Shown here piece after piece: positions 21,188-40,495 of a stretch of 64,000 nt of DNA. The DNA comes from Cellvibrionales bacterium (lineage in GTDB: Bacteria > Pseudomonadota > Gammaproteobacteria > Pseudomonadales > JAHEIH01): contig JAHEIH010000008.1 of assembly GCA_024639455.1 (NCBI GenBank), positions 1-64,000 on the forward strand, written 5' to 3'. The position numbers and the translations under genes are program-made. Below the pieces are notes generated by a model. That model did not search any database, was not told the origin of the DNA, and was given only the letters and a program-made list of their open reading frames with translations. Each line of letters begins with the position of its first letter. The stretch's first letter is position 1.

Positions 21188-21951
21188 GCGCTAACGCGCC
21201 ACTGCAGTTTTGGGTCACGCGGCCTGAAGGCACGGCTGATGAGCTGACGCAGGCCTGCGAAACACAAGGTATCGGCGTGGTGCAGTTGCCGCTCATGGAT
21301 ATCTCTCCGTTGCAAGACGACGGCGTCGCGGCGCGTATCGTGATGGATCTCGACCACTACAGCCACGTCATTTTTATCAGCGCAAATGCGGTGCGTTATG
21401 GCATGGGTCTGATTGAGCAGTATTGGCCGCAACTGCCACTTGGCATTCGTTGGATGGCGATAGGCGCCGCCACAGCCAGTGCACTGCAGCGATATGACGT
21501 AGACGTGCAAGCGGGTGATGGCACGATGAATAGTGAAGCCCTACTGGAACTGCCGACCTTACAAGCGGGTGAGCATTTGCAGCGCGTGTTGATAATGCGT
21601 GGTGCTGGGGGGCGCGAACACTTGGCCGAGGTGCTCACCCAGCGCGGTGCACGTGTTGATTATTGTGAGTTGTACCAACGCACTGTCCCGGACTATCCTC
21701 AAGGCACAGTCGCGCATTTATTTGATAAGCTTGGCGTGAATTGCTGGTTGGCATCAAGTGCCGAAACCTTGCAAAACGGCCTGGCTCTCGCCGCCAGTGA
21801 GGGGCGCCGCGATTTGCTAGAAACACCGGTGATTGTGCCGGGTGAGCGAGTGGCTGCCGAGGCCGAGAAGTCAGGTTGCCAACGGGTAGTAAAAGCCGAA
21901 AATGCCGGCTGTCGTGCGGTGATGACCGCACTGAATACCATTAAGGGTTGA
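21184..21951 (+). CDS. hemD: Uroporphyrinogen-III synthase HemD
   Basis: 255 aa if started at TTG 21184, which overlaps the hemC stop (TTGA). The frame extends further upstream, but that stretch lies inside hemC. HemD cyclises hydroxymethylbilane while inverting ring D. The family is poorly conserved; visible features are FWVTRPEG at the start, [39 protein letters not shown] and [10 protein letters not shown]. Position between hemC and hemX secures the call. Confidence 0.9.
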
Positions 21952-21952
21952 T

Positions 21953-24357: not shown

Positions 24358-24816
24358 TTAACTGGCGGGGCGAATCATGTGGACGTGCAAGATACCGTCT
24401 TCCATGTAGGGCTCGCCACTGACGACAAATCCCAGCGATGCATAAAAGTCTTCTAACCGCTGCTGCGCGCCGATCTTGATTGGCTGTGATCCCCAGTGCT
24501 CTTCAATCCAACTAATCGAACGCTGCATTAATTCTCTCCCTAGCTGAAGGCCGCGGTATCTGGGTGAGGTAACAACCCGACCGATCGAGCACTCGGTGTA
24601 GGCGACACCTGGAGGAACGAGGCGGCTATAGGCCGCTAACTGCTCGCCGTGATAGCCAAATAGATGAGTGCAATTGGGATCCATGCCATCGGCGTCTAGG
24701 AAGGCACATTCCTGTTCTACTACGAAAACCTCCTGCCGCAGCGCCATACTGTCGTACAGTTCTTGCAGATTCTGCTCGTTAAAGCCGCGGGAGTACCAGT
24801 GGATGCTGTTGTTCAT
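24358..24816 (-). CDS. elaA: GNAT family N-acetyltransferase (ElaA-like)
   Basis: 152 aa. The ElaA signature is clear: LRQEVFVVEQECAFLDADG, AAYSRLV, the acetyl-CoA loop SIGRVVTSPRYRGLQLGREL, IGAQQRLEDFYASLGF and the C-terminal YMEDGILHVHM. Substrate unknown. The frame continues to 24912, but the promoter at 24847-24875 and the good ATG at 24816 set the start. Confidence 0.92.
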   Translation of the reverse strand: MNNSIHWYSRGFNEQNLQELYDSMALRQEVFVVEQECAFLDADGMDPNCTHLFGYHGEQLAAYSRLVPPGVAYTECSIGRVVTSPRYRGLQLGRELMQRSISWIEEHWGSQPIKIGAQQRLEDFYASLGFVVSGEPYMEDGILHVHMIRPAS

Positions 24817-24846
24817 GGGGTATACGATGGTGTTTAAAGATTGTTT

Positions 24847-24875
24847 AGTGTAGCGATTGGTGTACAGGTTGTGAA
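24847..24875 (-). promoter_or_regulatory. Promoter of the elaA-like gene
   Basis: Minus-strand TTCACA (24875-24870, 5/6), a 17-bp spacer and TACACT (24852-24847, 4/6). Transcription would begin near 24840, about 25 nt before ATG 24816. This rules out the longer reading frame. Confidence 0.55.
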
Positions 24876-24930
24876 GGTGGTTATGAATCGTGATGAGGGT
24901 GGCCGCTGTCACCCTTTCTTCGAAACGCTT

Positions 24931-24973
24931 CCCACACTAGAACGTTGACGCCTCTTAATGTGGGACGTCAACG
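24931..24973. repeat. Interleaved inverted repeats (possible pseudoknot or switch)
   Basis: CCCACA (24931-24936) can pair with TGTGGG (24959-24964), and CGTTGACG (24943-24950) can pair with CGTCAACG (24966-24973). The pairings are interleaved, so they form either a pseudoknot or two exclusive structures. Part of the larger hairpin-rich element. Confidence 0.5.
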
Positions 24974-25091
24974 CGAAGCGCTGGCGTCAAGAAAGTTGCG
25001 CACGCTGCGCGTAGCAACCCACAGGTACTCCTCCTGTAGGAGGTTTCACGGAGTGAAAGCGACAGGATGTTGCCGCAGCAACGTACCGTTG

Positions 25092-25170
25092 ATAAGTAAG
25101 TGGAGCGTTAGCGAGGAAGAAAATACAGATACGTAAGAAAATAAGTAAAAGCGTCAGCGAGGCAGAAAGT
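25092..25170. repeat. Two diverged copies of a ~30-nt direct repeat
   Basis: Copy 1 spans 25092-25124 and copy 2 spans 25141-25170, about 49 bp apart. Each begins with ATAAGTAA and ends in a 21-nt block starting AGCG (25104-25124 and 25150-25170). The 21-nt blocks match at 18 positions. A weaker relative, AGCGCTGGCG..AGAAAGTTGC, lies at about 24977-24999. Confidence 0.6.
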
Positions 25171-25180
25171 GCAAGGCCGA

Positions 25181-25234
25181 GGCCATTTTTTCGAGCGGAG
25201 TTTAGATGGACTAAATGACTCGAGAAAAAAGGCC
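25181..25234 (-). terminator. Long imperfect hairpin downstream of rho
   Basis: GGCC (25181-25184) with GGCC (25231-25234), a T6/A6 block, TCGAG/CTCGA (25191-25195 and 25219-25223) and an inner TTTAG/CTAAA (25201-25205 and 25211-25215) make a 54-nt near-palindrome. It lies 30 bp after the rho stop. T-runs lie inside the stem rather than after it, so it is not a textbook terminator, although ending the rho transcript is a reasonable guess. Confidence 0.5.
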
Positions 25235-25264
25235 CTAACGCAGCAATTTCGACGCAGCTAGCTT

Positions 25265-26524
25265 TTATTTTCTTTTCATTGAGTCGAAAAACTCGTTGTT
25301 AGTCTTATGCATTTTCAGCTTATCGAGTAGGAATTCCGTCGCTGGTACATCATCCATGTCGTTCAGCAGTTTACGTAAAATCCACATGCGTTGCAGCTCT
25401 TCTTCGCTGGTCAACAAGTCTTCGCGGCGGGTGCCGGAGCGGCGAATGTTAATCGCGGGGAATACGCGGCGCTCGGCGATCTTGCGGTCGAGATGCAGTT
25501 CTAGGTTACCGGTACCTTTGAACTCTTCGTAAATGACTTCGTCCATCTTCGAGCCGGTGTCGATCAGGGCTGTCGCCATGATGGTCAAACTGCCGCCTTC
25601 TTCGATGTTACGCGCGGCGCCAAAGAAACGCTTGGGGCGTTCTAGGGCATGGGCGTCAACACCACCGGTCAGTACCTTACCTGAGCTTGGGATAACAGTG
25701 TTGTAGGCGCGTGCAAGACGAGTGATCGAGTCGAGCAGGATGACTACGTCTTTTTTGTGCTCTACTAAGCGCTTGGCTTTTTCGATGACCATTTCGGCGA
25801 CTTGTACGTGGCGCGAAGGGGGTTCGTCGAAGGTTGAGGCAACCACTTCGGCGCGCACAGAACGCTGCATTTCGGTCACTTCCTCGGGGCGCTCGTCGAT
25901 CAGTAGAACGATCAAGTAGCACTCGGGGTTGTTGCGCGAAATACTCTGCGCGATGTTTTGCATCATAAGTGTTTTACCGGCCTTGGGCGGTGCAACGATC
26001 AAGCCGCGTTGGCCTTTGCCGATGGGCGATGTAAGGTCAATCACGCGACCGGTTAAATCCTCGGTCGAACCGTTGCCTACTTCCAGCACGCAGCGCTGGT
26101 TGGGGAACAAGGGGGTCAAGTTTTCAAACAAGACCTTGTTCTTGGAGTTTTCGGGTTTGTCGAAGTTGATTTCACCAACTTTCAACAGAGCAAAGTAACG
26201 CTCGCCATCTTTGGGTGGGCGGATTTTGCCGGAAATGGTATCCCCAGTGCGTAAATTGAAGCGGCGGATCTGGCTCGGTGAGACGTAAATGTCGTCGGGG
26301 CCAGCGAGGTAAGAACCCTCGGCAGAACGCAGGAAGCCGAAGCCGTCTTGCAAAATTTCTAATACTCCGTCGCCGGAAATATCTTCACCGCCTTTGGCGT
26401 GGCGCTTTAGGATAGAGAAAATAACATCCTGTTTTCGCGAGCGGCCCATGTTTTCAAGGCCCATGGTGGCGGCGATATTCAGCAGTTCAGCGATAGGTTT
26501 TGTTTTGAGGTCGGTTAGGTTCAT
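25265..26524 (-). CDS. rho: Transcription termination factor Rho
   Basis: 419 aa, the same length as E. coli Rho. The hexameric RNA-dependent ATPase helicase ends transcripts at rut sites. N-terminal RNA-binding domain (about 1-120, [16 protein letters not shown], cold-shock-like [13 protein letters not shown]), Walker A in [11 protein letters not shown], Walker B in [11 protein letters not shown] and R-loop residues in EEFKGTGN. No strong Shine-Dalgarno precedes the ATG. It follows trxA, the usual gammaproteobacterial order. Confidence 0.98.
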
Positions 26525-40072: not shown

Positions 40073-40495
40073 ATGTCCCGATTTGCACCATTCACACTGC
40101 TAATGTTGTTAGCCTGTTGGCTCAGCGTGGCGCACGCGCAGGAGGAGGGAGAGCCCGCCGGTCCTGCTACCATGTATTACGAAATCGACCCGGCCTTCGT
40201 ACTCAATTACGGCAATGGCACCAACGGTCGCTTAAAGTTCATGCGTGTGGAGCTCACCCTGCGGCTCAACACCCGTGGCAGCGTAATAGGCGATGTCAAT
40301 TTGCACATGCCAGCCATTCGCCACGCCATCATTATGTATCTCAGTAAACAAAGCGCTAAACGCATTAACGACGCCACCCAGCGCGATGCTATTCGGCTCG
40401 AGTTGCTGCGCGAAGTACAGATCGTATTAGCTGAAGCAGGAACTACCGAAGGGGTAGAGGACCTGCTCTTCAACGCTTTTATTGTGCAACGTTAA
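40073..40495 (+). CDS. Exported FliL-like protein
   Basis: 140 aa. Signal peptide (MSRFAPFTLLMLLACWLSVAHA) followed by a FliL-like periplasmic domain: MYYEIDPAFVLNYGN, KFMRVELTLRLNTRG, VNLHMPAIRHAIIMYLS and the C-terminal LREVQIVLAEAG, with a final LFNAFIVQR. Classical FliL is anchored by an N-terminal membrane helix beside the stator; here the hydrophobic segment ends in AHA-Q, a cleavable signal. No flagellar gene is near. Its 3' end overlaps gshA by 17 bp. Confidence 0.85.
   Translation: MSRFAPFTLLMLLACWLSVAHAQEEGEPAGPATMYYEIDPAFVLNYGNGTNGRLKFMRVELTLRLNTRGSVIGDVNLHMPAIRHAIIMYLSKQSAKRINDATQRDAIRLELLREVQIVLAEAGTTEGVEDLLFNAFIVQR

Follow-up and report, generated by a model that had tools for sequence, protein, structure and literature searches.

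A Probable Transposon-Like Hairpin Family and Two Kinds of REP Sequence Between rho and elaA in a Cellvibrionales Bacterium

The 448-bp gap between rho and an elaA-like gene was found to be a mosaic of three dispersed kinds of repeat. The gap is bounded by the ATG of elaA (24816) and the stop codon of rho (25265–25267) and lies within the 64,000-nt stretch of DNA that was analyzed, which is referred to here as the window. The novel part of the gap, denoted element B, apparently represents a large, uncatalogued hairpin family that extends across the Gammaproteobacteria. Element B is best explained as a transposon-like (MITE) family whose insertion restores the stop codon that it enters. Family membership, covariation, clustering at stop codons, target duplications, and one pair of empty and filled sites were shown directly. 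The gap would represent a landing ground for small nonautonomous mobile repeats in this lineage, and not in the same-genus relative, with REPs of two types in the middle and element B, a class-wide family with a 118-nt core, against the rho stop codon. The features of the gap are presented in Table 1.

Table 1. Genes and repeats at the gap between elaA and rho (positions in the window)
Feature	Position	Strand	Basis
elaA-like acetyltransferase gene	24358–24816	−	ORF 24358–24912 (GTG start) with internal ATG at 24816; same gene order in G001
REP of type II	24906–24935	−	83% like L051 1337–1366
BIME, two inverted REPs of type I	24959–25023	24959–24987 on +, 24995–25023 on −	86–89% copies on contigs C10 and C14
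REP of type II	25035–25063	+	83% like copies in contig C9
Partial second copy of the outer end of element B	25097–25119	+	Direct repeat D1, 83% over 24 nt, 46-bp spaced
Element B, 118-nt covarying hairpin	25148–25265	+ (antisense to rho)	R1, 110.2 bits; R2, 99.2 bits, E = 4.5e-23
rho, 419 aa	25265–26524	−	ORF; stop codon adjoins element B

The acetyltransferase gene, which we take to be elaA, is the downstream neighbor of rho and is read in the same direction. In a relative of the same genus (G001), whose rho orthologue is 96% identical, the repeat mosaic is absent and the two genes are only about 43 bp apart; relative to G001, the whole filling of the gap is lineage-specific. The initial annotation had described this interval as the only gap of more than 300 bp in the window. 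The gap is real, but a rough tiling with ORFs of at least 100 aa gave a second one of 305 bp at 40174–40478, and another at 21188–21952 that is filled by an overlapping ORF. No plausible gene was found within the gap, in agreement with the same annotation; the longest ORF that is fully inside encodes 63 aa from a TTG start (24945–25136). The density of short stems had been judged to be far above that of the rest of the window, and this holds for stems of 5 bp and fails for those of 6 bp or more. The gap contains 5 perfect stems of 5 bp or more whose loops are 3–4 nt, versus a mean of 1.0 per 448-bp segment of the window, and 11 of 993 overlapping segments reach 5. With loops of 3–8 nt, the corresponding values are 9 and 2.7, and 6 of 993 segments reach 9. 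The 2 stems of at least 6 bp are unremarkable (145 of 993 segments reach 2).

The interval is not the isolated element that it was first taken to be, since its parts have copies elsewhere in the same genome. A blast search of the genome with the gap returned 35 matches at E ≤ 10, and most of the significant ones fall in two separate groups. Second copies were also found in relatives, and the early suggestion of a dispersed intergenic repeat family was thus borne out, though as three families stacked together: two types of REP and element B. The type I REP copies on contig C10 are located on either side of a RAYT gene (NF047646, 133.1 bits with a cutoff of 80; Pfam Y1_Tnp), and the extragenic inverted palindromes that flank this gene identify 24959–25023 as a REP/BIME. 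The type II copy at L051 1337–1366 is directly upstream of the second RAYT-like (Y1_Tnp) gene of the genome. The type II pattern has 16 matches in the genome with no more than 3 mismatches, versus 0 for the reversed control. The parts at 24906–25063 belong to the known REP/BIME and RAYT systems: their palindromes are short, have heads of the GTGG or GTAG type, and occur in inverted pairs, with copies beside RAYT genes. The differences are that the copy number of these REPs is low and that they adjoin element B, which is not itself a REP. The REPs in the gap are attributable to the two RAYT transposases of the genome and are of ordinary, known kinds.

Since the type I REP copies on C10 and C14 are spaced in a way that suggested gene cassettes, integron attC sites were considered; they were rejected because the intervening sequence, which holds a RAYT gene and otherwise ordinary genes, gave a better explanation. 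On contig C14 (L010 775–5028), two MazE/VapB-PIN-type pairs and a ParE/Phd pair are found in a row with type I REPs between them. A different REP-like repeat (GCCGGCTAAAGCCGCCTCCCAC) adjoins copies of element B in G001 (L017 1570–1650 and L019 1660–1750). The stem TGTTGC-CGCA-GCAACG at 25064–25096 of the window, between the REPs and element B, matches none of the three families.

The long near-palindrome at 25181–25234 that had been singled out by the initial annotation is real but is merely the upper part of the 118-nt palindrome of element B. This copy is the sole match to model R2 in the window. At its end, it shares one base with rho, namely the first of the stop triplet in + strand notation. 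Partial ends similar to that in Table 1 adjoin element B at L011 and L013. On the + strand, the outer stem of element B is 5 bp in length and is followed by a short stem, a 6-bp stem that is interrupted at one position, and a 15-bp stem of free sequence; the apical hairpin is GGAG-TTTA..TAAA-TGAC. Model R1 was constructed from seven aligned copies from this genome and G001. Both sides had changed in 20 of 31 pairs, and the covariation score for these 7 copies was 0.481 versus 0.170 after shuffling. A mutual-information scan of 43 copies with no preset structure recovered a single nested series of helices that spans the entire element, and model R2 was built on this structure. The covariation in R2 runs along the whole length, with a score of 0.728 versus 0.225 when shuffled and 0.12–0.19 when slid. 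The outer stem is paired in 95.8% of the cells. With the same structure, 29 copies from the class search gave 0.671 versus 0.178 in an alignment fitted to the model.

A reading of the gap as decayed sequence whose hairpins arose by chance, or just as the transcription terminator of rho, is very improbable. Such an explanation would accord with the GC-corrected folding energy of the gap, which is not extreme for the window, with the fold of the window copy of element B alone (z of only −1.8), and with the Rfam search, in which no match above the gathering score was found in the window and no family corresponds to element B. It is already contradicted by the matches to R1 and R2, the multiple genomic copies, and the covariation. 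Of the conditions under which the initial annotation would have accepted ordinary degraded sequence, the lack of any second copy and the lack of covariation in relatives do not hold. The two terminator-like candidates in the gap are both within the REP doublet, and no intrinsic terminator, defined as a GC stem with a T run after it on the same strand as rho, was found inside element B. In G001, a plain GGGCC hairpin and a T run are instead found directly 3′ of rho.

Certain positions in the covarying structure are frozen as non-pairs. All 43 of the 43 copies have a G·A at columns 15/114, and 41 have one at 6/122; a C·A at 30/99 and a G·T at 55/74 are each retained in 41 copies amid changing neighbors. 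Among the paired columns of the + strand, with two G·A-dominated columns left out, there are 46 G·T versus 17 A·C (p = 3e-4), and the class alignment contains 32 versus 6 (p = 2e-5); these copies were found with + strand models, which slightly favors G·T, and the class alignment had in addition been fitted to the model. With this caution, it is the + strand that appears to have remained foldable, in antisense orientation to rho and, in the order sets, to most of the upstream genes, and selection may maintain this + strand fold of element B. A structured small RNA had been among the initial proposals; covariation strongly backs the structure of such a putative RNA, and the wobbles point to a fold on the strand opposite to rho.

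The compensatory changes could conceivably originate from template switching between the palindrome arms during replication (quasipalindrome correction) and not from selection for a fold, although we regard this as rather unlikely. Such a mechanism has been described for RNA hairpins (PMC8794818). Element B also adjoins rho in one genome of another family (L083, approximately 1501–1618, in G160), where the palindrome is 13 bp longer and the right arm repeats 13 bp from the end of rho in inverted form, a pattern that resembles copying between the arms. However, copying of the arms should have erased the frozen mismatches, and these, together with the strand bias in the wobbles, speak against template switching alone as the source of the covariation.

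Model R1 gave 17 matches in this genome at E ≤ 1 and matches of almost constant length in 50 of 194 genomes of the order, from 36 of 96 genera. At E ≤ 0.01, R2 found matches in 155 of 369 genomes of the class and 126 of 272 genera, with E-values that are rough and copy numbers per genome that are to be read as "at least". Among the matches listed in a pattern scan, the main carriers are Pseudomonas, Stutzerimonas, and Halopseudomonas, and the others include Nitrosomonas, Neptunomonas, Bermanella, and Dokdonella. Pattern matches were also observed in assemblies labeled Desulfuromusa and Pedobacter (L248 and L258), from either transfer or contaminated bins. A head-to-tail array of element B with a 128-bp period and a run of N inside is present on contig C13 of this genome (139293–139890; L011 6294–6891). 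Copies of 168–170 nt, enlarged by an insertion at the apex, occur at L104 3563–3730, L020 417–585, and L192 1501–1670. No description of the family was recognized in the open-licence literature. A study of Pseudomonas fluorescens lists intergenic repeats that include R30 (120 bp) and R178 (101 bp), which favor tail-to-tail gene ends, and proposes some, which bear the names R0 and R2 in that study, as MITEs (PMC2718517). R30 and R178 are similar in size to element B.

The position of element B relative to stop codons was determined in copies with enough flanking sequence, where adjacency was defined as a stop codon within −10 to +15 nt of the element that closes an open frame of 100 codons or more. 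A stop codon was found on the sense side in 43 of 64, 32 of 60, and 12 of 27 copies from three sets (87 of 151 in total), versus 2, 4, and 6 on the antisense side (12 of 151); not all of these copies are independent, since sister genomes share some of them as orthologues (dnaK, dnaJ). For random positions within these loci, the count was 102 of 4314. Copies approximately 1365 bp apart, considered as the ends of a mobile gene, proved to be the arrangement dnaK-[B]-dnaJ-[B]. In a fourth set that is rich in Pseudomonas (n = 107), the bias is nearly gone, with 35 sense and 29 antisense cases. Element B is longer in this set, with extra arms, and the peak distance to the stop codon, 11 nt, is equal to the length of the arm.

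Element B may instead be mainly a 3′-UTR RNA element, whose hairpin protects or destabilizes the upstream mRNA and which selection holds at stop codons in one orientation. The strong sense bias in the order sets and the covarying fold are consistent with such a role, and there is a precedent in ERIC, for which a review gives a proposed ribosome-dependent exposure of an RNase E site in Yersinia. This alternative is nevertheless doubtful. The wobbles and mismatches favor the opposite, antisense strand, and the orientation bias nearly disappears in the Pseudomonas-rich set. Element B is also not retained at orthologous sites: in a survey of 30 rho loci from 30 genomes, it was found within the 1500-bp flanks only at the locus of the window. 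A conserved rho 3′ element, and with it the long rho 3′ region that had been considered initially, was not supported by this survey and was rejected.

The evidence for insertion as a transposon-like element was obtained from 53 long-arm copies (CAGGCYGTTGA...TCAACRGCCTG; Pseudomonas). Identical 4-mers flank 24 of these copies, versus 9.4 expected when the right flanks were re-dealt, and none of 2000 deals was as high as 24; other offsets gave 0 or 1. The left 4-mer is YTAR in 43 of the 53. The same core with a second type of arm (GGGCACCTCTA...) has identical 4-mers, which are not YTAR, in 7 of 13 copies and none at the other offsets tested. In the one pair of empty and filled sites, at the end of a gene read from its translation as argG-like, the empty site in G634 is ..AAGCTGGT-CTAA-GCTGAA.. 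and the filled site in G190 is ..AAGCTGGT-CTAA, 140 bp of element, and CTAA-GCTGAA... The TAA within the duplicated CTAA is the stop codon both before and after the insertion, which accounts for how a stop codon can be entered harmlessly.

The insertion reaction of the B family would duplicate a 4-bp target, which in the best-resolved Pseudomonas form would be YTAR. YTAR contains both TAA and TAG. A stop codon of either kind at such a target would therefore be rebuilt on insertion, the insertion would be tolerated, and copies would consequently accumulate at gene ends. We consider this account, in which the gap is a landing ground for mobile repeats and the B family rebuilds the stop codons that it enters, to be probable as a whole. 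YTAR gives no explanation for the TGA stop codons beside element B, which are found in 7, 11, and 5 cases in the three sets (23 of the 87 sense cases). The copy in the window is flanked by ATAA and TTAC, which are not a matching pair, with the partial second end 46 bp away; it would have arrived by the same route.

Element B resembles bacterial MITEs in being short (118–148 bp) and without an ORF, in its inverted terminal arms, which are long in Pseudomonas, and in its many copies. The 4-bp target duplication is present in the long-arm forms and at the empty site and is absent from the window copy. It differs from them in that no partner IS was found, the core covaries along the whole length, and there are at least two kinds of terminal arm. 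YTAR targets are linked to IS5-type enzymes, and element B would be moved by a DDE-type transposase. A small search of five genomes and plasmids for an autonomous partner with the same terminal repeats found none. With PF01609, three loci with other ends were found in G190 and none in the four other genomes, and the 4 records from the plasmid search have no transposase annotated under the match. A search of G001 for empty sites that correspond to the copies in this genome gave one 70% match, which was not usable. Copies are up to 97% identical to one another in G190, G634, and G619, which suggests that they moved recently and that the transposase could be sought in these genomes.

Among the closest known systems is ERIC, which is described in the literature as a 127-bp sequence with TA ends, a TA duplication, and no established mover and is reported in enterobacteria and Vibrionaceae. 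Like ERIC (also IRU or RU-1), element B is a short imperfect palindrome of similar length that encodes no mover of its own, and it shares the apical core GGAGYTTAn..nTAARTGACT and may likewise end at a duplicated, TA-containing target. The apical core of ERIC (GGAGCTTAC..GTAAGTGACT) corresponds to GGAGTTTAG..CTAAATGACT in the window copy. The targets of the long-arm forms of element B are 4-mers with a central TA (YTAR), and a TA duplication is described for ERIC. The ERIC core of E. coli scores 14.6 bits against R1 (E = 0.009 in 5.5 kb) and 9.5 bits against R2. Beyond the apical core, no convincing alignment was obtained, and similarity over the whole sequence of ERIC (approximately 127 bp) was not found, which by this measure places element B outside ERIC in spite of the likeness in build and behavior. 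Element B is not ERIC itself: an ERIC query that is present in 5375 of 5426 E. coli genomes matches 1 of 369 class genomes by blast versus the 155 matched by R2. ERIC from E. coli looks like a distant relative of element B. The ERIC at ybhI of K-12, a single locus, touches the ybhI stop codon in the same orientation as element B at rho. In an order mate (G034), a copy that appears intermediate between the two (L018 1458–1565, 19.2 bits) is found upstream of a gene that we take to be gvpA-like.

A tentative wider reading, which we hold to be possible but not the likeliest, is that the core of approximately 118 nt is an independent, portable module that is found in at least two transposon frames and in a short-arm form over much of the Gammaproteobacteria, with ERIC as one divergent branch. 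The two frames are the CAGGCYGTTGA arms with YTAR and the GGGCACCTCTA arms with other 4-mers. A fold of the + strand that is recognized by a partner would, more than the arms, explain the persistence of the core. As a speculative part of the same reading, the + strand might fold as single-stranded DNA or as RNA, with the conserved G·A mismatches and the invariant G·T. If the account given here is right, then the class-wide family would include as a local branch ERIC, which has served for decades in bacterial typing with no known mover, and the choice of target, with a stop codon rebuilt by duplication, would explain why such repeats are found at gene ends. The strand bias and the frozen mismatches make a function of the folded single strand directly testable. 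Element B also serves as a test case for a general problem, namely whether covariation in a palindrome reflects a selected structure or mutation by template switching.
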